From NCBI RefSeq assembly GCF_000384815.1, contig NZ_ARQF01000019.1, positions 1 to 64,000 on the forward strand: a stretch of DNA of 64,000 bases. The letters run 5' to 3'. A program made the position numbers and the translations under genes. Every line of letters starts with the position of its first letter. The stretch's first letter is position 1. Positions 33,124 to 48,127 of this stretch are shown one piece after another. The notes under the pieces are model-generated. The model saw only the letters and a program-made list of their open reading frames with translations. It was not told the DNA's origin and searched no databases. The stretch is from Halodesulfovibrio aestuarii DSM 17919 = ATCC 29578 (GTDB taxonomy: Bacteria > Desulfobacterota > Desulfovibrionia > Desulfovibrionales > Desulfovibrionaceae).

Positions 33124-33678
33124 ATGTTTCGCGCTCACCGATCTTTAGTATTTATCCTTTGCGCTGTACTGCTGACCATTTCCGGCTGTGCATCCTCTAA
33201 AGTGCTCTTACGGTACGTCCCTGCAAACGAACTCCCTGCTGTACAAACACAGCACAACGCCAACGTCGGCCTAGTACAATTCACCGACGCTCGTTCCACA
33301 CTGATTCTCGGCATTGATAATGACAAAGAGCTAACTCCAGTTACCAATGTCGCAGCATGGGTTACACGAGGACTTGAGAACGAACTGGTACGTCAGGGTG
33401 CAACTGTTGAATACGTCCTTACTCCTAACCAGATTGCATCATTTCCTACTCGTGTAACTGGCACAATTTCACAGCTTAAAATTACTCCGCTTTCTGTTGC
33501 AGAGTACCGGGGAGAGATTACACTCTCTATTGCCGTCAATAACGGGTTACCAACTACCTACAAGGCAACAGTTATTAAGCAAGGAGTACCTTACACAAAT
33601 ATCATCGAACCATTACTCGCAGAGTTATTACAAGAAGCAATTACACCTGCTGTTCCAATAATTCTTGCCGAAAAGTAA
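33124..33678 (+). CDS. YajG-like lipoprotein
   Basis: A 184-residue protein with a lipoprotein signal peptide: basic N-terminus, hydrophobic core and lipobox ISGC with the lipidated cysteine at residue 22. The mature part resembles the YajG family (an uncharacterised periplasmic-facing lipoprotein), including FTDARSTLILGI and VTRGLENELVRQGATVEY. The residues after Cys are Ala-Ser, so outer-membrane sorting is expected. A TGGAGG ribosome site precedes the ATG. The role is unknown. Confidence 0.75.
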   Translation: MFRAHRSLVFILCAVLLTISGCASSKVLLRYVPANELPAVQTQHNANVGLVQFTDARSTLILGIDNDKELTPVTNVAAWVTRGLENELVRQGATVEYVLTPNQIASFPTRVTGTISQLKITPLSVAEYRGEITLSIAVNNGLPTTYKATVIKQGVPYTNIIEPLLAELLQEAITPAVPIILAEK

Positions 33679-33682
33679 CACT

Positions 33683-34726
33683 ATGTTGAAATTTAGCCCC
33701 CTTACTGCCACATTTGCTCTCGTAAGCCTGTGCATCTGCACATCCTTTCCAGCATATGCAACACCTGAGCCTCTTGAGCCGGTGCCCTTTTCACACACAG
33801 TAAAAATTGCCTATGGCTACTCGCTTACTGAGCAAGCAGCCACAGTTATAGCAGAAGCATTTGCCCTGCACGGAGCGTTCACTCGTGCATCACAATGGAT
33901 CGAACACCGTCAGCAAATTGCTCGGGGATCTGAAACCACACCAGCGCTTGCAGCAAAAGAAGAAACCATTGCAGCTAATCAGCTTTACAAATTTCATCGA
34001 TCAAAGATCTTCCGCTCCAAAGACATTGACGGCAACTACATTAACGTTGAAGTAACAATCTCCCCGATTGAACAATTCGATGAAAAGCACCTTCTTGCAC
34101 TAAAACCGACAAGCCGCGCCAAAATCTTTGAAGCTATTTTCATGGCCGAAGAAAGCTACCTGCAAGAATTTTCAACCAAAACCTTTAACGACAAACAGCA
34201 CACGTTCCTGCTTAGCCTTAACGCTAACTCGAAGTTCTTTTTCGACAATATCGCAAACAGACTGCGAGCTCTCAAAGCATACAGAAAGCTTGTGCCTGAA
34301 TACACTCAAGGCACTTGGAAGAACCCCAAACAGAAGCTCAAAGAAGTTAGTCTGCTCCTGAATTCCGCTCCAGAAGAGCCTATTTTGCTACATGCGAAAG
34401 GGAGCATACTGTTTCAGTTAAAAAATACCATTGAAGCTATCCGTTACTTCAATGATGCCATCGACCTAGAGCCCAACCTTGTAGTAGCTCTGCACGACAG
34501 AGGCACAGCCTATGTTCGGGCAAATCTCCCTGACATGGCACTCGTAGATTATGACAAGGCTATATTGCTTTCACCTAATAACCCGCACCTGTATATCTCG
34601 CATGGCTCGGCAGATCTTGTACTTAAAGACTACGAATCAATGTGCAAAAACTACCGTAAAGGCTGCAGTCTAGGGCTTTGCAACGAACTCAACTGGGGGA
34701 TCGCCCGCGGCATGTGTAAGAAATAA
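33683..34726 (+). CDS. Exported tetratricopeptide-repeat protein
   Basis: A 347-residue protein with a signal peptide (about 1-25, cleavage after AYA). The middle part (about 60-210) is helical without a recognised domain. At least three TPR units fill about 220-325 (AKGSILFQLKNTIEAIRYFNDAI, then VVALHDRGTAYVRANLPDMAL). A Cys-rich tail, NYRKGCSLGLCNEL and ending GMCKK, suggests disulfides or a metal. The frame could start at a TTG six codons earlier, overlapping the lipoprotein gene, but the signal peptide fits ATG 33683. It probably works in the periplasm with the preceding lipoprotein. Confidence 0.75.
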   Translation: MLKFSPLTATFALVSLCICTSFPAYATPEPLEPVPFSHTVKIAYGYSLTEQAATVIAEAFALHGAFTRASQWIEHRQQIARGSETTPALAAKEETIAANQLYKFHRSKIFRSKDIDGNYINVEVTISPIEQFDEKHLLALKPTSRAKIFEAIFMAEESYLQEFSTKTFNDKQHTFLLSLNANSKFFFDNIANRLRALKAYRKLVPEYTQGTWKNPKQKLKEVSLLLNSAPEEPILLHAKGSILFQLKNTIEAIRYFNDAIDLEPNLVVALHDRGTAYVRANLPDMALVDYDKAILLSPNNPHLYISHGSADLVLKDYESMCKNYRKGCSLGLCNELNWGIARGMCKK

Positions 34727-34849
34727 CCTGCAGTTTTTTCTTTCTTTAAATAGGTAGGTCTTCGGCGGGCATGGGGCCAGAGCGCCTCGACTGTGATTAG
34801 CGAGAAAATTATCTTCTTAATGGACATTTCGAGTTACTGGCAATGTAAT

Positions 34850-34884
34850 AAAAAAGGGTAGAGTTTTTACTCCACCCTTTTTTT
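34850..34884. terminator. Bidirectional intrinsic terminator
   Basis: AAAGGGTAGAGT (from about 34854) pairs with ACTCCACCCTTT with one mismatch, flanked by A and T runs on both sides, so it can stop the TPR operon rightward and a minus-strand transcript leftward. Confidence 0.8.
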
Positions 34885-35001
34885 GTTTTTCTGGAACAAT
34901 ATGTAATCATCTCATTGTCAATCGCATGTCAGCATAACTAATTGCATCATACTTTTCTTATTAAAATATTATTCACAAACCTCATCTTTCATCATTCTAG
35001 T

Positions 35002-35177
35002 CTCCCCTGCTCCCCGACAAACAAAAGACGAGTCGGCCGTGCCCGAGGGGTAAGGGGCACGGCCGACGCTGCAAGGGAGGAGGATGAGTTGTGTGGCATC
35101 GCTGCCTTGCCACACGCAAGTCAACTGCTGCCTGTCGACTTGGACTAACTCTGCTGTCTCCGCAAACCTTCGGAAAC
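35002..35177 (-). ncRNA. Candidate noncoding RNA with four consecutive hairpins
   Basis: Read on the minus strand: hairpin A (GTTTCCG 35177-35171 with CGGAGAC 35162-35156, one G-U pair); hairpin B (CAAGTC 35142-35137 with GACTTG 35122-35117); hairpin C (GTGTGGCA 35115-35108 with TGCCACAC 35098-35091); and element D, with an outer helix CTCCCTTGC/GCAGGGGAG (35079-35071 with 35010-35002, one G-U pair) enclosing a 13-bp helix (35067-35055 with 35044-35032). In A and in the outer helix of D the plus strand would have mismatches where the minus strand has G-U pairs, so the minus strand is the likely RNA. The loops of B and C share AGGCAGC. TATAAT at 35226-35221 and the terminator at 34850 could bound a transcript of about 360 bases. 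No known family is recognised. Confidence 0.5.
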
Positions 35178-35484
35178 AAGCATCCATGTATCCACCATAC
35201 CCTGAAAAAAGGACTTCGCCATTATATTCTGCGTTCTAAGCTACTACTTTTTTTATGTTTAGGCAGGGTACATATAAAAAAACTTACAAAGCATAACTAG
35301 GCATACTCCTTGTGTATTCAAGACATTCTCCCAAATAAATATCTTGTACAGAATAACCCGCCCTATCAACAGGATAACACCAGCCTTATACAAAGAGCGA
35401 AGAGAGAGCTAAGACACTCCAGAGGGCTGCCTAACCACATGAGGTTACCTTGATAATCATTTTTTGAGGGAGTATGATTTATGA

Positions 35485-35760
35485 ATGATAGATATTAACC
35501 GGACTATCCCAACGGTACTTTCGCGTGTTGCGTCATTAGAAAAATCGCATGGAATTCGTATTGCCACATTCAAAAAAGATCGACACATCACCATACGACG
35601 CATCAATAAAACCACACTGCACATTGCAAGGCATGGATTTACCGACGCCGAGTACGAACTGGATGAAAGTAAGTTGAAAAAAGAAATGAAGACACTACTC
35701 AAGCAGGAATTCCCACGCAGCAATAAAGTGCATCTGAGTTCTGTCTCGAATGAAGAATAA
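35485..35760 (+). CDS. Small protein of unknown family (EFPRSNK type), copy 1
   Basis: This 91-residue protein shares its C-terminal half with the protein encoded at 40706-41059 on the other strand: LKTLLKQEFPRSNKVHLSS here, [19 protein letters not shown] there, and both have a preceding beta-rich part with a basic stretch (FKKDRHITIRRI here, [12 protein letters not shown] there). The two are clearly paralogous, and I do not know the family. No signal peptide or membrane segment is visible. GAGGGAG lies 12 bases upstream of ATG 35485; earlier ATGs are closed by stops. It converges on the metallo-beta-lactamase gene. Confidence 0.65.
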   Translation: MIDINRTIPTVLSRVASLEKSHGIRIATFKKDRHITIRRINKTTLHIARHGFTDAEYELDESKLKKEMKTLLKQEFPRSNKVHLSSVSNEE

Positions 35761-36875: not shown

Positions 36876-38075
36876 ATGTACGATACTCCCACACTAGAAC
36901 GCTACGCCGAAGTACTTTTCTGGGCACTCTCAAGAGCCCGGACTTCACCATATAAAAAAAGTGATTTTATTCTGGTAAATTATGACATTGACGGGCTCTC
37001 TCTAGCAGAAGAGGTCTGCTCACTGCTTCACGACAAAGGAATGATTCCTATCCCCAGAATGAATGAAACTCCCCGTATGCAGGTGGACAGATACACCAAA
37101 GCAAACAATAAACGCCTCACTACAATCTTCCCGGGGCAGCGCGACTTATATAACCATCTTAATGGATCAATTTCCATTTACGCTCCTGCTTCACTCGCGC
37201 ATTTGTCAAATATCGATCCAGAACTCATCGCTATGTATAGCAAAGCGCAACAACCGTTACGCGGTATTATGCAAACCCGTGAAGACATGGGGGCATTCAG
37301 CTGGACATTATGCATGTATCCTACACAGGCGTTAGCTGCACAGGCAGGTATTACTCTTGAGGAATATGCACGGCAGATTGAAATGGCATGTTACCTTAAT
37401 AAACCTGAACCCACAGTCCAATGGCGTCAATTTGCCAAAAAAGTTGATGAACTCACTGAATGGCTGGACAGTTTCGGGGATTGTGCAATGCACGTTGAAT
37501 CGGCTTCGGTCGATCTGAATGTCCGAATAGGTCAACACCGCAAATGGGTAGGTTTCACGGGCCGCAACATTCCTTCATTCGAACTGTATGTTTCGCCGGA
37601 CATGCGCCACACAAATGGTGTCTATAAATCCACGCTACCGACGTTCCGTTCCGGAAACATTATTGGGGATATTCAGTTAATATTTAAGGATGGGCGTGTC
37701 ACTAAAGTCACAGCAGATCACAATCAGGCATTTGTTGAGCAACAGCTTAATCAAGACCCCGGTGCTGCATTAGTTGGTGAATTTGCACTGGTAGACAAAC
37801 GCTTTTCTCCCATCTCCAAATTTATGGCCAACACTCTATACGATGAAAACCATGGTGGAGAAAACGGCTCTATGCATATTGCGTTAGGTAATTCTTATGC
37901 GAACACGTTTAGCGGCCATGCAGAACAATTAACAGAAGATACACGTAAAAATCTTGGATTCAACTCATCCTCACTGCATTGGGACTTAGTTAATACAGAA
38001 GAAAAAAGAGTTGTAGCGCAACTTCCAAACGGTGAACGGAAAACAATTTATGAAAATGGTAAGTTCTCGCTATAA
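36876..38075 (+). CDS. M29-family aminopeptidase
   Basis: The 399-residue protein is a thermophilic-metalloprotease-type (M29, AmpS/AmpT) aminopeptidase that trims N-terminal residues from peptides in the cytoplasm. Likely metal ligands are Glu in the segment FTGRNIPSFELYVSPD and in LVGEFALVD, His in MHIALGNSY with its conserved Tyr, and the His-x-Asp of SLHWDLVNT. The order and spacing agree with the family. AAAGGAGA before ATG 36876 sets the start, although the frame is open 22 codons upstream. It is monocistronic with its own terminator. Confidence 0.9.
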   Translation: MYDTPTLERYAEVLFWALSRARTSPYKKSDFILVNYDIDGLSLAEEVCSLLHDKGMIPIPRMNETPRMQVDRYTKANNKRLTTIFPGQRDLYNHLNGSISIYAPASLAHLSNIDPELIAMYSKAQQPLRGIMQTREDMGAFSWTLCMYPTQALAAQAGITLEEYARQIEMACYLNKPEPTVQWRQFAKKVDELTEWLDSFGDCAMHVESASVDLNVRIGQHRKWVGFTGRNIPSFELYVSPDMRHTNGVYKSTLPTFRSGNIIGDIQLIFKDGRVTKVTADHNQAFVEQQLNQDPGAALVGEFALVDKRFSPISKFMANTLYDENHGGENGSMHIALGNSYANTFSGHAEQLTEDTRKNLGFNSSSLHWDLVNTEEKRVVAQLPNGERKTIYENGKFSL

Positions 38076-38178
38076 AAGCTTATTTAAAGCATCCTGTTGT
38101 ACACAACGCTTGTACTTATCATTTTATATTGACTTCAATTCATCACCTACCATACTAAATAAGCAGACATACTATTTT

Positions 38179-38216
38179 GTGGGCGCACATTTTTGTAATG
38201 CGCCCACTTCATTTTT
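38179..38216 (+). terminator. Intrinsic terminator of the M29 aminopeptidase gene
   Basis: A perfect 9-bp stem GTGGGCGCA (38179-38187) with TGCGCCCAC (38199-38207) and a T-rich tail (TTCATTTTT). Confidence 0.8.
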
Positions 38217-38253
38217 AGAATCACTCTAAAAATAATGAAGGTAGGGGGGAGGC

Positions 38254-39396
38254 ATGGAAACCAGTACAGTAAGCACAGAAGACCTCAAAGAAATTATCTA
38301 TCACAAAAATTTGAAAGTGGGTACTTACTGGATTCTTTTTTCTTCATGTATTCTGCAAGTATTAAACGCTTACTATCTTTTTCTAGGCTTTAATCTTCTT
38401 ACACCATTAGGTATTGCATGCAATACTATCCACACAGCCTTCCTTATCATCAGTGCAATATGCATTAAATTTGCATTCAAAAGCAAACGTGCATCGCACC
38501 ATAGCTGGATCATCTCTGCATTTTGCATTGGTCTTTTCTGGGCTATTTCCACAGTAAACACCGTTTATTTCTGGAACCAGCCTGAGCCGGCCTCACGTGG
38601 AATTGTTATCGGTGCTTTTTCACTTGTCATAGGATGGTATGCGCGCCCGGCCTTGTTGCTAACAGCCTTTCCTACAATGCTTGCTGCCTACATTTACCTG
38701 ATTGTCGGGTTCAGCGACAAGACACATCTTGGTCTGCTGCTTTCGATACTCAAATTCCCTGCGCTCATGCTCGCAAGTCTGTACACTCTTCGATACTGGC
38801 TTTCTTTCTGCATGGAAAAATTTGTTGAAAACGAAATCCTCACTGAAAAGCTTGAAGCCATGGTCCGGATAGATGAGCTCACCAAAATTGCAAACCGCAA
38901 AGGGTACAACGAAGCACTGGAGCAAGCATTAGAAGTCGCACAACGCTTTGGCAAGCCGCTCACCCTGTTGCTCATTGATGTTGACTACTTCAAGCAATAC
39001 AACGACCACCTCGGTCATCAGGCCGGTGATCGCTGCATTAAAGCTATTGCAAAAGTTTTGTCCAACCATGCACGTCGTGCAATCGACACCGCAGCCCGCA
39101 TCGGTGGTGAAGAGTTTGCTTTAATCCTCCCCTCCTGTGATCAGTATCAAGCTACAACCATTGCGGATAAGATACAGGAAACCCTTGCAAATCAGATGAT
39201 CTACCATCCTGCTTCCCCGATCAGCCCCAATGTAACAATCAGCATAGGTATTTCAGAATACGTTCCAAATGATACTTCCGGTACACTCTACAACAAAGCG
39301 GACATGGCGTTGTATGAAGCGAAACATCATGGACGAAACTGTTTTGTTGTGGCCACAGATATTCAAAACAATAGCCAATCGCTTGATGCCGTGTAA
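38254..39396 (+). CDS. Polytopic membrane diguanylate cyclase (GGDEF)
   Basis: The 380-residue protein has about six membrane segments (about 24-46, 50-74, 84-106, 114-130, 132-152, 158-184), a short coiled linker and a GGDEF domain. The catalytic signature is GGEEF at 284-288 and the metal-binding segment is LIDVDYFKQYND. The I-site RxxD (Arg275-Asp278) lies five residues before the signature. The membrane part resembles a generic six-helix sensor and has no recognised ligand. The start has GGGGGA close upstream. It is the second c-di-GMP synthase of the window and unlike the first in its sensor part. Confidence 0.92.
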   Translation: METSTVSTEDLKEIIYHKNLKVGTYWILFSSCILQVLNAYYLFLGFNLLTPLGIACNTIHTAFLIISAICIKFAFKSKRASHHSWIISAFCIGLFWAISTVNTVYFWNQPEPASRGIVIGAFSLVIGWYARPALLLTAFPTMLAAYIYLIVGFSDKTHLGLLLSILKFPALMLASLYTLRYWLSFCMEKFVENEILTEKLEAMVRIDELTKIANRKGYNEALEQALEVAQRFGKPLTLLLIDVDYFKQYNDHLGHQAGDRCIKAIAKVLSNHARRAIDTAARIGGEEFALILPSCDQYQATTIADKIQETLANQMIYHPASPISPNVTISIGISEYVPNDTSGTLYNKADMALYEAKHHGRNCFVVATDIQNNSQSLDAV

Positions 39397-39439
39397 TTTT
39401 TTCTTGCCCGTCAACAACAAAGAGGGCACCATCCTCCCT

Positions 39440-39766
39440 ATGGAACACATTCTTATCAAAGTTTATGGAAGCATTTCAAATGCTAGTCCAGAACTCTACG
39501 CAGCTGCGCTGGAAATGGTACAAGAACAGAACGAAGATGCTGTTGAACTGGACGGTACATTCTTCACGATCAGCTTTGAAGGCATTTACTTTATGATGAA
39601 TGAATTCATTGCTGCCATCAAACCACACCTCACTAACGACTGTACCGGACGCATTGACTACATTGACGTTGATGAATGGAGCTTAACTCGATTCTGGATA
39701 GAAGGCGGGCTTATTACGCAAAACACTGCCGATTTAAACCATGTTATGGATCATTCCGGACATTAA
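39440..39766 (+). CDS. Small protein of unknown function downstream of a diguanylate cyclase
   Basis: A 108-residue acidic soluble protein that I do not recognise. The open frame reaches back into the cyclase gene to 39269, but the upstream part is only its shadow; MEHILIKVYGSISN at 39440 is the likely start although the ribosome site is weak. The composition is ordinary, with a beta-alpha pattern and the acidic segment RIDYIDVDEWS. A terminator follows, so it may share the cyclase transcript (43 bases between them). Confidence 0.55.
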   Translation: MEHILIKVYGSISNASPELYAAALEMVQEQNEDAVELDGTFFTISFEGIYFMMNEFIAAIKPHLTNDCTGRIDYIDVDEWSLTRFWIEGGLITQNTADLNHVMDHSGH

Positions 39767-39778
39767 CGCATAAAAAAT

Positions 39779-39804
39779 ACGCTAAACTTAATAGCGTTTT
39801 TTTT
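39779..39804 (+). terminator. Intrinsic terminator before zupT
   Basis: A short stem ACGCTA (39779-39784) with TAGCGT (39792-39797) followed by a run of eight T. Confidence 0.7.
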
Positions 39805-39891
39805 CATGCAGTTCTATACAACCAATTTTGTTTTAATTTGGTATAATTTCCCCTTACAGAGATTCTCCCCCCTTCACACGTAAGGAAGTCC

Positions 39892-40728
39892 ATGCACGAT
39901 TCCGCAACAATATTCTTTGCATTTGGCCTCACTCTTTTCGCCGGTCTGGCAACAGGCATCGGCTCTATGCTTGCCTTTTTCACAAAAAGAACAAACACAG
40001 GGTTCCTTTCTGTCGCATTAGGATTTTCAGCCGGAGTAATGCTTTATGTGTCGTTCATAGAGATATTCGTGAAGGCAAAGGTAGAACTGCAGTCTGAACT
40101 CGGCGAAGTATATGGCATGTGGGCAACTGTTGCCGCGTTCTTTGGCGGTATGCTTTTCATTGGTATTATCGACAGGTTAGTCCCAGCTGAAGAAAACCCG
40201 CATGAGATCCATAACGTTGAAGAAATTGACTCTCTCGAAGTAATAATAAAAAGAGAAACACCAGAGCAAAAAGATAGAAAATTGCTTAGAATGGGTGTTT
40301 TTACAGCGCTTGCAATCGGTATTCACAATTTTCCGGAAGGGCTTGCAACGTTTACAGCAGCACTATCCGACCCTAACCTCGGGTTTGCCATTGCTGTAGC
40401 TATAGCAATCCACAATATCCCAGAAGGAATCGCTGTTTCGGTTCCTATCTACTATGCAACAGAGAGCAGAGGCAAAGCTTTTACTCTGTCCTTCCTTTCC
40501 GGTCTGGCCGAACCGGTTGGCGCAATCATCGGTTATCTGTTGCTTATGCCCTTCCTCTCACCAACAGTTTTCGGCATTGTCTTCGCCAGCGTTGCAGGAA
40601 TCATGGTATTCATCTCTCTGGATGAATTACTTCCAACCGCACAGGCGTACGGTGAGCACCACCTGTCCATATATGGACTGGTAGCCGGTATGGCTGTTAT
40701 GGCAATTAGCCTGCTACTTTTTTTGTAG
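39892..40728 (+). CDS. zupT: ZIP-family divalent metal transporter
   Basis: A 278-residue inner-membrane protein with about eight membrane segments and the ZIP metal-site motifs [10 protein letters not shown] (about 145-154) and [11 protein letters not shown] (about 174-184). A charged loop (about 95-135) lies between helices 3 and 4. It imports zinc and probably iron or other divalent ions, as the ZupT/GufA type does. An AAGGAAG ribosome site precedes the ATG. Its 3' end overlaps by 23 bases the convergent small gene at 40706. Confidence 0.92.
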
Positions 40729-41059
40729 GGAGAGTCTCACCATACCGTCCTGCACCATGCGCCATGCGGTTCACGTTTGCATCTTCATAGGAATCAAGCG
40801 TATACAGACGAATTTTATTAGAACGGGGAAACTCTTTTTTTAACAGAGTTTTCAACAGACGTTTAACCTGTTCTGTATTCTGATTGTCCCAAACTTCCTG
40901 ATAAAAACCATCTTCAACAACACGAAAAGAATCTTCGCCACAACATACAATTACGACAGAACGATTACGCTTGAACGAGCGCATATCTACACACTGCCCA
41001 ACGTTCAGCTTCTTCATACGCTTCAATACAGAATCAATTGAAGTCTGTTTACTTGTCAT
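40706..41059 (-). CDS. Small protein of unknown family (EFPRSNK type), copy 2
   Basis: A 117-residue paralogue of the protein at 35485-35760; the shared segment, [19 protein letters not shown], is near residues 67-85. It has a longer N-terminus and a basic C-terminal extension ([14 protein letters not shown]) absent in the other copy. The central [20 protein letters not shown] looks like a beta hairpin. No signal or membrane segment is visible. It overlaps the zupT 3' end by 23 bases tail to tail. The function is unknown. Confidence 0.7.
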
Positions 41060-41151
41060 TACATTTCTCCAACAACATGACTTCTACAACGCACCGAAAT
41101 GGGGTCTATTTTCCCCAGAAAAGAACTCTGCAAAGCCCCCAACGTCATATA

Positions 41152-41640
41152 CTACGTACGTGACAATACGCCTTCAATACCAAGCAAGTAACGCTTCATA
41201 CTTACCCCCTGACCAGAAAAGCCGCCGAGCCCTGATGCAGCCACAACACGGTGACACGGAATAATCAACGGCCAGCGGTTTCGCGCCATCACCTGCCCAA
41301 CCCCACGCGCTGCGTTGGGACTTCCCGCAAGAGCTGCGAGTTCACCGTAAGAAACCGTTTCTCCATATGGCACCTGCATCAAAGCAGTCAGAACATTCTG
41401 ACCAAACGGCGTCATTTTTTCGAGGGCAAATGGAAGATCAGGCCACTGAACATGCTCGCCTAATTCATAACGCAACAGACAATCGCGCAATTGCTTCCCA
41501 ATATCTGACAACTCTTCAGTTGAGTTTTCTCCATTTGCCCATAAGAGAGACAGCTCAACCAGCTTTCCTTCCTGCCAGTTAAGAATAAGGCGAAGTCTAG
41601 TACCTACGATTTGTTCAATTTCTGGTAAAAACATATTCAC
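41152..41640 (-). CDS. ogt: Methylated-DNA-[protein]-cysteine S-methyltransferase
   Basis: A 162-residue DNA-repair protein that removes O6-alkyl groups from guanine by suicide transfer to its cysteine. The active site is IPCHRVVAASGLGGFSG, and the HTH segment includes VPYGETVSYGELAALAGSPNAARGVGQVM. A short N-terminal domain precedes it, as in Ogt. It is downstream of the radical SAM gene (34-bp gap) on the same strand. Confidence 0.93.
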   Translation of the reverse strand: MNMFLPEIEQIVGTRLRLILNWQEGKLVELSLLWANGENSTEELSDIGKQLRDCLLRYELGEHVQWPDLPFALEKMTPFGQNVLTALMQVPYGETVSYGELAALAGSPNAARGVGQVMARNRWPLIIPCHRVVAASGLGGFSGQGVSMKRYLLGIEGVLSRT

Positions 41641-41674
41641 TCACGCGCTACAATGTACGTATTGCTGCAAAAGG

Positions 41675-44720
<3,046 letters not shown>

Positions 44721-44746
44721 CGCGAGTTTCATACGCGGAAAAGGTT

Positions 44747-45235
44747 ATGCGAAAAAGTAGGCACCCCCTCTTTAAAAATATCTTCTGGTGGCTCGGCTAT
44801 ACAGTCGCAGCTATCTGGATGCAGTTTACAATCGCAGGTGTGGATTTTTTCATGCCTGCGGTTATCTGCTCTATGCAGGAAGAAAATCCCCGCCAAACCT
44901 TCTGGCTCGTGACGATGTTCGCCCTCATTCAAGAAGGTACCGGTGCCATTGCCTTTGGCTCTTCTACACTCTGGTATTGCTCCGCACTGCTGCTTATGTA
45001 CTATGGTCGATGGATGTTCGATGCGAACAACTTCTTCTTCATTGTACTGGTATCATGTGCACTCGGAGTCTGGAATGTCGGGCTTACCTTGCTGATGGCA
45101 AACTTACAATCATTCCAAGTTAATTTTCAACTCTTAGTCGCCGACAGCTGTCTGCTGGCCGGCATTATTCCTCTAGTATGGCTTTTCCTGTACTCACTAC
45201 GGCAAGGATTCCTGCGTAATGTCAATGCAACTTGA
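44747..45235 (+). CDS. mreD: Rod-shape-determining membrane protein MreD-like
   Basis: A 162-residue membrane protein with about five hydrophobic segments, placed between mreC and mrdA as mreD always is. Sequence similarity in this family is low; position and topology carry the assignment. It probably links MreC and the periplasmic machinery to MreB. It overlaps mrdA by 17 bases. An AAAGG site precedes the ATG. Confidence 0.8.
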   Translation: MRKSRHPLFKNIFWWLGYTVAAIWMQFTIAGVDFFMPAVICSMQEENPRQTFWLVTMFALIQEGTGAIAFGSSTLWYCSALLLMYYGRWMFDANNFFFIVLVSCALGVWNVGLTLLMANLQSFQVNFQLLVADSCLLAGIIPLVWLFLYSLRQGFLRNVNAT

Positions 45236-47015
45236 TCCAGAAGGCTACCAACCTCCCAAAACAGGATTATGGTTGTTGCAGGGGCTTGTGCTTCTGCTTT
45301 TTCTCATATTTCTGCTTAGATTCTGGTATCTTCAAATTCACCATGGCGAAGACTTTGCAAAAAAGTCCCGTGACAACCGGATTCGACAGGCACAAATTTA
45401 TGCCCCTCGAGGTTTGTTGCGTGCCCGCGGCGGCGAATTACTTGCAGAAAACCGCCCAGCGTATGGTCTTGGCATTGTTCGTGAAGACGTAAAAGACATC
45501 GACACAACATTGAAGCAGATTAGCCTGTGGACAGGCGTCCCTCTGGAAAATATTGAAAAACGGTATAAGAAAGGTCGCTGGCGCACCAAAGCGTTTGAAC
45601 CCCTTTTGCTTGTTCCTACCATTAATTTTTCCCAGCTAGCCACCATAGAAGCAAACTCCTTAGACTGGCCAGGCCTGGAGGTCATGACTCGACCTCAGCG
45701 GTATTACCCCGAAGGTGAACTCTTTGCGCATATCCTTGGCTATGTTTCTGAAGCTAACGAAAAAGAACTGGAAGCAAATAAAGCGTTGGACCTTGGTGAT
45801 ACCATAGGCAAACAAGGCCTTGAGCTCATCGAGGAAAATACGCTGAGAGGCACTAAGGGCTTGCGGCAAATGGAAGTTGACATATCCGGTCGCGAATACA
45901 ACTCGCAAACACTGGAAGAGCCGTCAGCCGGTTCATCCGTTACCCTGTCTATTGACCTTGGCCTGCAACGCATGGCGGCTAACGAATTAAAAGATCAGGC
46001 TGGTTGTATCGTGGTAATGAACCCGGATACTGGAGAATTGTATGCGCTTGTCACCGCACCAAGTTATGACCCCAACGCATTCACACGCGGCCTGAGTCAC
46101 AAAGAATGGGGAGAGCTGCGTGACAACCCTCAATTCCCACTTCAAAACCGGGTTATCCAATCCGTTTACCCTCCTGCATCCATCTGGAAGCTGCTCATGG
46201 CAGGCCTGTACCTGCAGGAAGGCATTGACCCTAATGAAACTATCAACTGCAACGGCAAATACAAGCTGGGCAACCATACATTCCGTTGTTGGAAAAAATG
46301 GGGACATGGCCAGGAAAATTTAACCGAAGCACTGATACACTCATGCGATGTATATTTTTATGAAATGGGTCAGCGCATCGGCATTGATAAGATCGAGGCC
46401 TTCGCCCGTAAAAACGGATTTGGTTCACAAACCGGCATTGACCTGCCGCACGAACGCTCCGGTCTTGTCCCGTCCAAAGCGTGGAAACGCAAGCGTTTCA
46501 ATCAGCCGTGGCAAGGCGGCGAAACGGTTATCACATCTATTGGTCAAGGATTTACGTTAGTTACCCCTGTCCAGATTGCCGTCTTTATATCTTCACTGCT
46601 TAATGAAAAAGGGGAACTGCTTAAGCCGAACCTCTTCAAAGGTACTCCCAAAACAGTCCGAGGGATATCACCTCTATCTAAAGATCAACGAGAATTCATT
46701 GTTAAAGCAATGCAGAAAACGGTAGAAGCCAAACACGGAACAGCACGCATTCTGCGTACGAAGCGTGCAATTGTTGGCGGCAAAACAGGGACGGCTCAGG
46801 TTACAAAGCTTAAACTTGATGCCAATGACAACCGCCTGAAAAACAAAGATCTTGAGTATTGGCAGCGAGACCATGCATGGATGGCAGCATGGTCAAAGTT
46901 CAATGGGAAAAAATACGTTGTTGTTACCATGGTTGAACACGGAGGCGGTGGTTCTTCTACTGCCGGTCCGATTATGCGCAATATCTTGAATTACATTTAT
47001 GAGAATGACAAATGA
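45219..47015 (+). CDS. mrdA: Penicillin-binding protein 2 (transpeptidase of the elongasome)
   Basis: A 598-residue class B PBP with an N-terminal membrane helix (about 17-37), a dimerisation/pedestal domain and a C-terminal transpeptidase domain. Active-site motifs are SIWK (in PPASIWKLLMAG, about residues 323-334), SCD (in HSCDVYFYEMGQRIG) and KTGT (in GGKTGTAQV, near 517). It cross-links new peptidoglycan during rod elongation with RodA. It lies between mreD and rodA with short overlaps, so the whole cluster is probably one operon. Confidence 0.96.
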   Translation: MSMQLDPEGYQPPKTGLWLLQGLVLLLFLIFLLRFWYLQIHHGEDFAKKSRDNRIRQAQIYAPRGLLRARGGELLAENRPAYGLGIVREDVKDIDTTLKQISLWTGVPLENIEKRYKKGRWRTKAFEPLLLVPTINFSQLATIEANSLDWPGLEVMTRPQRYYPEGELFAHILGYVSEANEKELEANKALDLGDTIGKQGLELIEENTLRGTKGLRQMEVDISGREYNSQTLEEPSAGSSVTLSIDLGLQRMAANELKDQAGCIVVMNPDTGELYALVTAPSYDPNAFTRGLSHKEWGELRDNPQFPLQNRVIQSVYPPASIWKLLMAGLYLQEGIDPNETINCNGKYKLGNHTFRCWKKWGHGQENLTEALIHSCDVYFYEMGQRIGIDKIEAFARKNGFGSQTGIDLPHERSGLVPSKAWKRKRFNQPWQGGETVITSIGQGFTLVTPVQIAVFISSLLNEKGELLKPNLFKGTPKTVRGISPLSKDQREFIVKAMQKTVEAKHGTARILRTKRAIVGGKTGTAQVTKLKLDANDNRLKNKDLEYWQRDHAWMAAWSKFNGKKYVVVTMVEHGGGGSSTAGPIMRNILNYIYENDK

Positions 47016-48127
47016 TTGCATTTGACAGACGCCTGCTTACACACATGAACTGGGGATTGCTTCTTATAACAATTCTCTTATTCGGCATTGGAGTCTTGAA
47101 CCTTTACTCCGCAAGTGCGTTTATGTCTCAGGAAGGTATGGCTGTTACAGCGTATTACCAGAAGCAACTTGTATGGGGCATCATAGGCTTCGGTATCCTT
47201 ATCTTATCCATACTCATCGATTATCGTCATTTAAAGAGCCTGGCATGGCCTATTTTCATCATAACCATCATCACACTCATTCTGGTACCCATCGCAGGTA
47301 AAACCATCTATGGTGCACGCCGCTGGCTTGATTTAGGTTTTTTTAACTTTCAACCGAGTGAACTGGCGAAAATTTCCACCATTGTCATCACAGCACGGCT
47401 TCTTGCCCGTTCTTCACATCCTCTGGACTGGAAAGAACTCTTCATTATGCTAGGGATCTGCTCCATTCCGGCTGCCCTCATTTTAATACAGCCGGATCTT
47501 GGTACAACACTGAACATGCTTTTAAATGTTGGTGGAATCATTCTATACCGAGGCCTGACACGCCGTGTTTTTAAAACATGCGCGATTCTAATCCCGTCGC
47601 TTGTTCCTGTAGGCTGGCTCTGTATGCTGGACTACCAGCGCCAACGCGTGCTCACATTTTTGAATCCGGGAGATGATCCTCTGGGAGCGGGCTACCAAAT
47701 TATCCAGTCCCAAATTGCTATTGGTTCCGGCCAAATTACTGGGAAAGGCTTCCTTGGCGGCACTCAGTCGCAGTTGCGTTTTTTACCGGAAAAGCATACG
47801 GATTTTGCTATTGCTGTATTCGGGGAAGAATGGGGATTTATTGGCTGTCTTTTACTGCTGTCTCTATTCTGCCTCTTTTTACTGGCTATCTTTACCACCA
47901 GCAGAGATGCAAAAGACCGTTTCGGTTCTTTTTTATCCGCCGGCGTTTTCTTTTACTTCTTCTGGCAGTTCCTTATCAACATGGGAATGGTAATGGGGCT
48001 TATGCCGGTAGTTGGTATTCCACTACCTTTTATCAGCTACGGCGGTAGTGCTACAGTGGTAAACCTGTGCCTTATCGGCCTTGTATTGAATGTCTCGATG
48101 CGACGATTTGTTTTCAAAACAGATTAA
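47012..48127 (+). CDS. rodA: Rod-shape-determining glycosyltransferase RodA
   Basis: A 371-residue polytopic SEDS protein (about ten membrane segments) that polymerises lipid II into glycan strands. Conserved parts are GARRWLDLGFFNFQPSELAK (about 95-114), LIQPDLGTTLNML (about 163-175) and GIPLPFISYGGSATVVNL (about 339-356). It overlaps the mrdA stop by 4 bases (ATGA), typical of translational coupling. Confidence 0.96.
   Translation: MIAFDRRLLTHMNWGLLLITILLFGIGVLNLYSASAFMSQEGMAVTAYYQKQLVWGIIGFGILILSILIDYRHLKSLAWPIFIITIITLILVPIAGKTIYGARRWLDLGFFNFQPSELAKISTIVITARLLARSSHPLDWKELFIMLGICSIPAALILIQPDLGTTLNMLLNVGGIILYRGLTRRVFKTCAILIPSLVPVGWLCMLDYQRQRVLTFLNPGDDPLGAGYQIIQSQIAIGSGQITGKGFLGGTQSQLRFLPEKHTDFAIAVFGEEWGFIGCLLLLSLFCLFLLAIFTTSRDAKDRFGSFLSAGVFFYFFWQFLINMGMVMGLMPVVGIPLPFISYGGSATVVNLCLIGLVLNVSMRRFVFKTD

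Follow-up and report, generated by a model that had tools for sequence, protein, structure and literature searches.

A conserved, structured RNA is very probably encoded on the minus strand of the Halodesulfovibrio aestuarii DSM 17919 DNA analyzed here, a stretch of 64,000 nucleotides from contig NZ_ARQF01000019.1 (hereafter the window). Comparison with related genomes gives good support to a noncoding RNA gene of ~195 nt that has its own −10 box and terminator, is under selection on its structure, and carries two GCAGC loops and a C-rich linker. The gene sits in the gap between a TPR-repeat gene and a small open reading frame (ORF), and the GC-rich patch that a first-pass annotation had described is indeed present in this intergenic stretch. 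The features of the locus are listed below; the 5′ end of the RNA is placed from the −10 box and its 3′ end from the terminator.

33665–34726, plus strand: TPR-repeat gene, convergent with the RNA and the next gene downstream of it
34844–34892 (hairpin at 34850–34883): AAAAAAGGGTAGAGTTTTTACTCCACCCTTTTTTT, which follows the convergent TPR gene
35018–35214, minus strand: putative small noncoding RNA, ~195 nt
35221–35226, minus strand: −10 box TATAAT with no clear −35 element; AATATAAT followed by RGC in 10/10 Halodesulfovibrio homologs
35181–35185, minus strand: GGAUG, invariant in 10/10; possible closing helix P1 with CAUCC of the linker (5 pairs, 0 varying)
35155–35178, minus strand: hairpin H1, loop AAGGUUUG; 8 bp in the centroid structure and 7 in the best fold; two-sided changes in 2/8 pairs, 100% of cells paired
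35117–35142, minus strand: hairpin H2, loop AGGCAGCA; 9 bp; two-sided changes in 5/7 modelled pairs, 91.2% of cells paired
35091–35115, minus strand: hairpin H3, loop AGGCAGCGA; 8 bp; two-sided changes in 4/8 pairs
35068–35087, minus strand: linker UCAUCCUCCUCCCUUGCAGC, C-rich, resembling an anti-Shine-Dalgarno sequence, with a third GCAGC; 20/20 columns identical in 10 sequences
35018–35067, minus strand: intrinsic terminator H4; 13-bp stem (35067–35055/35044–35032), loop CUUACCCCUC, T-tract 35031–35018
35485–35760, plus strand: small ORF on the other flank of the gap

The TATAAT box at 35226–35221, already recognized in the first-pass annotation, is present in all ten homologs of the genus. 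The promoter has no −35 consensus and was not reported by a simple scan requiring a −35 match. The consecutive minus-strand helices of that annotation were recovered as H1 (8/7 bp), H2 (9 bp), H3 (8 bp), and H4 (13 bp), as were the G-U pairs in two of them, H1 and H2, and the presence of AGGCAGC in the neighboring loops of H2 (35133–35126) and H3 (35107–35099). The third GCAGC closes the linker, which also includes CCUCCUCCC in a single copy. Pairing of GGAUG with the CAUCC in the linker is possible, but because neither element ever varies, this closing helix is unproven, and GGAUG is absent from the five Nitratidesulfovibrio sequences examined.

The extent of the RNA had to be revised. The description of a minus-strand RNA with several hairpins stands, but its length and 3′ end, which had been placed at a terminator at 34850, do not: H4 and its T-tract (35031–35018) form a terminator of the RNA’s own, and conservation stops there, giving an RNA of ~195 nt that ends near 35018. 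Among the Halodesulfovibrio homologs, similarity drops off past this T-tract. TCGTCTTTTGTTTG lies directly 3′ of the 13-bp terminator hairpin (35067–35032), which is the only hairpin with CCCC in a loop. A simple terminator scan missed H4, probably owing to a loop of 10 bases, longer than that scan allows; the sole match given by the simple scans lies elsewhere (35373–35357). The hairpin at 34850 is a repeated, two-way terminator-like element, with 14 further matches to AAAAAAGGGTAGAGTTTTTACTCCACCCTTTTTTT (83–95% identity) at 11 places in the genome.

Evidence for selection on the structure comes from an alignment of ten sequences (A5), with a structure derived from the RNAalifold result that comprises 40 pairs and 397 cells. 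Pairing is preserved in 98.2% of the cells (390), and 16 of the 40 pairs change on both sides, in 39 cells in all, a count that exceeds the number of independent events because most changes separate two subgroups. Covariation had been suggested as a check on the first-pass annotation, and it is borne out: none of 500 shuffles reaches the pairing percentage, either two-sided count, or the covariation score. Further pair types are not in excess, since 484 of the 500 shuffles have as many. When the partner is shifted by 1–3 columns, pairing falls to 34–50%. At least two pairs with two-sided changes are found in each of H1, H2, H3, and the terminator, the last with 5 of 12 modelled pairs so changed and 100% paired.

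The loops and the linker behave differently from the stems. Comparison of the two subgroups gives 40.1% identity for the H2 stem and 62.5% for the H3 stem, whereas GCAGCA in the H2 loop, GCAGCGA in the H3 loop, GGAUG, and the 20-nt linker are 100% identical. Since the loops and linker are invariant while the stems diverge, selection acts on the linker and on the sequences displayed by the hairpins. This supports a function for the repeated loop motif, as proposed, with one correction: the alignment places the conserved core at GCAGC rather than AGGCAGC.

The 197-nt minus-strand stretch folds with a predicted energy of −82 kcal/mol (z −4.32), and none of 200 shuffles folds equally well. The plus strand also folds (z −3.60, 0/200 shuffles equally good) and forms the 13-bp stem too, so that energy alone does not choose the strand. 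Assignment to the minus strand, as first proposed, follows from better pairing in the alignment together with the −10 box and a T-tract found on the minus-strand side only: 390 of the 397 cells are paired on the minus strand, compared with 368 on the plus strand, a difference due chiefly to 23 cells that are G-U. In the ten Halodesulfovibrio sequences, the GCAGC motifs presented by H2 and H3 are mostly unpaired in the predictions (0.74–0.99); in five Nitratidesulfovibrio sequences the corresponding values for the H2 loop are 0.34–0.86. The linker is predicted to be largely paired with the G-rich 5′ end of the RNA in the window’s subgroup; in the predictions for the five Nitratidesulfovibrio sequences, it is largely open in four and half closed in the other.

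When 59 genomes were searched at the DNA level, all ten Halodesulfovibrio genomes, its own included, contained the stretch, and none of the 49 others did. Six of the Halodesulfovibrio copies are 95–100% identical. Those of G003–G006 match only over 53–94 bases, and the whole RNA aligns once it is anchored by the promoter and linker; all ten copies have AATATAAT at the start and the terminator at the end. A covariance model (R1) had matches in 18 of the 199 genomes searched in the family and, across the order, in 14 of 199, all among those 18, both searches using stricter filters that lose weak matches. The 18 comprise the ten Halodesulfovibrio genomes, seven Nitratidesulfovibrio genomes (37–43 bits), and G076 (24.1 bits), which we rejected, as it has none of the neighboring genes and looks like the terminator of another gene. 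With a model of the 3′ part, the RNA was located in 7/8 genomes within Nitratidesulfovibrio, the eighth assembly consisting of 820 contigs. Conservation, another check raised for the first-pass annotation, thus extends to 10/10 Halodesulfovibrio and 7/8 Nitratidesulfovibrio genomes.

The RNA of Nitratidesulfovibrio is, to judge from these alignments, an altered form. Its linker (7 sequences, one base shorter) and terminator are nearly the same as in Halodesulfovibrio, and a hairpin GAUACGU...CGUAUC again presents GGCAGCA. A CGUUU-containing stretch occupies the place of the H1 loop; the 5′ part is otherwise different, and the GCAGCGA of H3 is missing. The surrounding genes indicate that these matches are the same gene and not chance, because TPR and lipoprotein genes and an M29 aminopeptidase gene flank the RNA as in the window. 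This neighborhood is shared by the three Nitratidesulfovibrio loci checked, out of seven, and by 4/10 Halodesulfovibrio loci, the window included. In the three former (L039, L066, and L071), the aminopeptidase gene is on the opposite side of the RNA from the TPR and lipoprotein genes; the window has the same arrangement, with a beta-lactamase-fold gene and a small gene intervening. A GyrI-like gene lies further out in L039 and L066. In one Halodesulfovibrio genome (G004, L041:8724–10973), the −10 box of the RNA closely follows the end of a candidate histidine-kinase-like gene, so named on the basis of its sequence, that runs in the same direction.

Beyond these two genera of sulfate-reducing bacteria, the searches yielded no convincing homolog. 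At E up to 0.1, 49 of 199 genomes had a match to the 3′ model (R2), with the 17 known ones at 75 bits or more and the other 32 at 41.1 bits or less. Eight of these 32, together with G077 and G076, were inspected and lacked the neighboring genes, except for one GGDEF match in L075; because those genes are absent, we took the weak matches to be ordinary terminators. Among 15 M29 aminopeptidase regions from other genera, some of them cut by contig ends, only that of G010 keeps the TPR, lipoprotein, and HU neighbors, and there only ~60 bases separate the TPR match from the aminopeptidase match, too few to accommodate the RNA. The one R1 match in these 15 regions was weak (16.5 bits, L126). An exact-pattern scan of 84,980 species genomes, which may leave out records near the window’s own, returned seven stretches, three from Halodesulfovibrio, three from Desulfovibrio sp., and one from Nitratidesulfovibrio.

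In agreement with the claim that the RNA is novel, Rfam 15 gave no match at the gathering threshold in the window or in six homologous loci. At E up to 10, only sub-threshold matches were found near the RNA, most of them on the 34850 hairpin. The RNA constitutes a new family of a known kind. A limited search of the literature on Desulfovibrio sRNAs found no description of this ~195-nt RNA in the texts as far as they were available, and the literature searched contains little on regulatory RNA in Desulfovibrio and related bacteria. One study covers Rfam-based sRNA prediction in O. alaskensis (PMC11124144). Another describes Dv_sRNA2 of Desulfovibrio vulgaris, an sRNA that is located downstream of the response regulator gene DVU0679 and is a target of this regulator (PMC3333781). 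Dv_sRNA2 is likewise an sRNA with no assigned function, from a Desulfovibrio species, but it adjoins DVU0679, whereas the neighbors of our RNA are the TPR gene and, in Nitratidesulfovibrio, the M29 aminopeptidase gene; the two are set apart by gene context.

We put at about even the chances that the RNA is a trans-acting regulatory sRNA that works independently of Hfq through its presented loops and C-rich linker. The stable hairpins and terminator would protect the RNA and fix the position of the GCAGC loops and of the linker CAUCCUCCUCCCUUGCAGC. The C-rich linker would contact G-rich Shine-Dalgarno sequences near the ribosome-binding site of mRNAs, the GCAGC loops would contact GCUGC on the same kind of target, and translation would be repressed upon contact. 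Part of the linker folds back on the G-rich 5′ end in the predicted structures, which could serve as an on/off switch. Such action without Hfq would resemble that of other strongly structured, C-rich sRNAs. We infer Hfq-independent pairing because the linker contains the anti-Shine-Dalgarno motif CCUCCUCCC, because of the analogy with sX13, and because Hfq (PF17209) had no match in the five genomes of the two genera searched (G000, G005, G009, G097, and G115), while 5/14 control genomes match.

As described, sX13 of Xanthomonas is an Hfq-independent RNA of 115 nt whose C-rich loops repress mRNAs with G-rich motifs (PMC3771888). The likeness to our RNA lies in the strong structure, the several stem-loops, and the unpaired C-rich stretches with complementarity to G-rich motifs close to translation starts. 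The two differ in that sX13, in the same account, has CCCC or CCCCC in three apical loops; here CCCC is confined to the terminator loop, the long C-rich stretch belongs to the linker, and GCAGC occupies two of the loops. The bacterial group is also another one, and the present RNA has no Rfam match. In the Rhizobiales RNAs SmelA075 and SmelA099, CCUCCUCCC is described as an anti-Shine-Dalgarno motif in loops on variable stems (PMC3927594). These RNAs and the CcsR/cuckoo RNAs share with ours this motif in combination with variable stems, but they are described there as carrying it in each of three or four loops, whereas here a single copy stands in the linker. CcsR RNAs, moreover, follow a DUF1127 gene (PMC10253847); in contrast, Pfam found no DUF1127 among six proteins neighboring the present RNA.

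Searches for targets gave no support to pairing. With two mismatches allowed at most, a 15-base sequence complementary to the linker had 36 non-self matches in six genomes, compared with 21 for a reversed control pattern. The 24 of these 36 that were inspected revealed no gene start common to all six genomes; an apparent start common to G000 and G002 was rejected, as it falls on the antisense strand of a 457-codon ORF. In G005, one match stands ahead of an HU-like gene, and the same string also occurs in G006. Near the starts of 44 window ORFs, 6-base linker complements were found for 10, compared with a mean of 7.1 and a maximum of 15 for letter-shuffled linkers, a weak test in which ORF starts were set by a simple rule.

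Three of the inspected matches (G002, G007, and G009) fall in another RNA. This second conserved intergenic RNA candidate of ~300 nt, to which a match common to three genomes (L090, L091, and L098) led, lies at L114:1501–1841 (G000:C19:239493–239833) and also occurs in L112, L113, L115, L116, and L117. It was found in 6/10 Halodesulfovibrio and 0/2 Nitratidesulfovibrio genomes searched, without an Rfam match in the three copies scanned, and its C-rich stretch differs in 3/6 copies. The candidate has TTGCACAA repeats upstream, an GGGGCGGCAGGCAUGCCGCCCC hairpin, the terminator loop GCAGAGCAGGC, and what we take to be a sigma54-like promoter (consensus TTTGGCACGCTCCCTGCT).

The serious rival to a pairing sRNA is an RNA that binds a protein through its repeated GCAGC loops and linker and titrates or scaffolds it in the manner of CsrB; we consider this rather unlikely. 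It is a serious rival because the linker is predicted to be paired in the window’s subgroup and because the linker-complement searches brought out no mRNA target. The same GCAGC, moreover, is displayed on two hairpins with different stems and recurs as a third copy in the linker. CsrB and RsmZ are protein-titrating RNAs that present a repeated motif in hairpin loops, many of which carry GGA, and RNAs of the CsrB type titrate CsrA. Our RNA shares the repeated presentation of a motif in hairpin loops, but its motif is GCAGC, and only three copies are present, falling to two in the five Nitratidesulfovibrio sequences examined, where one of the two is in the linker. A sponge for CsrA specifically is not supported, as each RNA has only 3–6 GGA across 15 sequences, and the single match of the CsrB model (34854–34889) is sub-threshold and outside the RNA.

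That the locus is a cis-acting leader or attenuator of a gene downstream, or encodes a small protein, is far less probable. The RNA does end in a terminator, and a 72-aa frame crosses it in the window. This long frame is open into the linker in 7/10 Halodesulfovibrio sequences, with an ATG in six of those, and would translate the invariant linker as ILLPCS; another, short frame (8–12 codons) starts at GGAUG in 9/10. However, the next gene downstream, the TPR gene, is convergent in the loci checked, which makes a cis-acting leader unlikely. The long frame was rejected as coding, though it is open in most sequences, for two reasons. It is shifted in 3/10 (G007, G008, and G003, the last of which also has a stop), two of these being close relatives of the window. 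In addition, the six variable columns among six close sequences fall at codon positions 1 and 2 (three each) and none at position 3, the reverse of the pattern of a coding gene. The sixth codon of the short frame encodes G, R, or C among the six close sequences, its GGAUG start is missing from the Nitratidesulfovibrio sequences noted above, and the stems covary. On this pattern of variation, the RNA is very unlikely to code for protein.

Similarly improbable is a feature of the DNA itself, such as a binding or recombination site, or merely a strong terminator: the 13-bp stem folds on the plus strand too, but ~195 nt are conserved with compensatory and G-U changes that favor the minus strand, the T-tract is one-sided, and the TPR gene is followed by a hairpin of its own (34850–34883). 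A diverged form of a known housekeeping RNA such as 6S has a negligible likelihood, for although the length is similar and the 6S model (RF00013) is without a match in the window’s genome and its five closest relatives, the fold is a row of hairpins without an Rfam match, and the other four Halodesulfovibrio genomes have a 6S RNA match 6.6–8.6 kb from this RNA, so that the two are separate genes. We therefore rejected the 6S identity, given the absence of an RF00013 match in the window and the separate 6S RNA in those four genomes. The distribution of the 6S model is uneven in its own right: it found none in G000, G001, G002, G007, G008, and G009, and a match in the other four Halodesulfovibrio genomes and in 11/11 genomes of other genera. 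A diverged 6S RNA may be hidden in those six; a relaxed Rfam scan of 38000–48000 found nothing.

The conserved structured RNA with its marked functional loops, preferably read as a trans-acting sRNA, offers a testable entry into possible Hfq-free regulation of mRNAs in these bacteria, and it represents a new family so far missed by Rfam-based annotation. A more far-reaching idea, which we regard as unlikely, is that sulfate reducers without Hfq use a multivalent sRNA in which the two GCAGC loops, the C-rich linker, and the C-rich terminator loop act jointly, possibly gated by the G-rich 5′ end, on a set of mRNAs or on an RNA-binding protein that recognizes GCAGC. If this were true, the multivalent sRNA would found an RNA family not yet on record and would provide a handle on Hfq-free riboregulation in this bacterial family.
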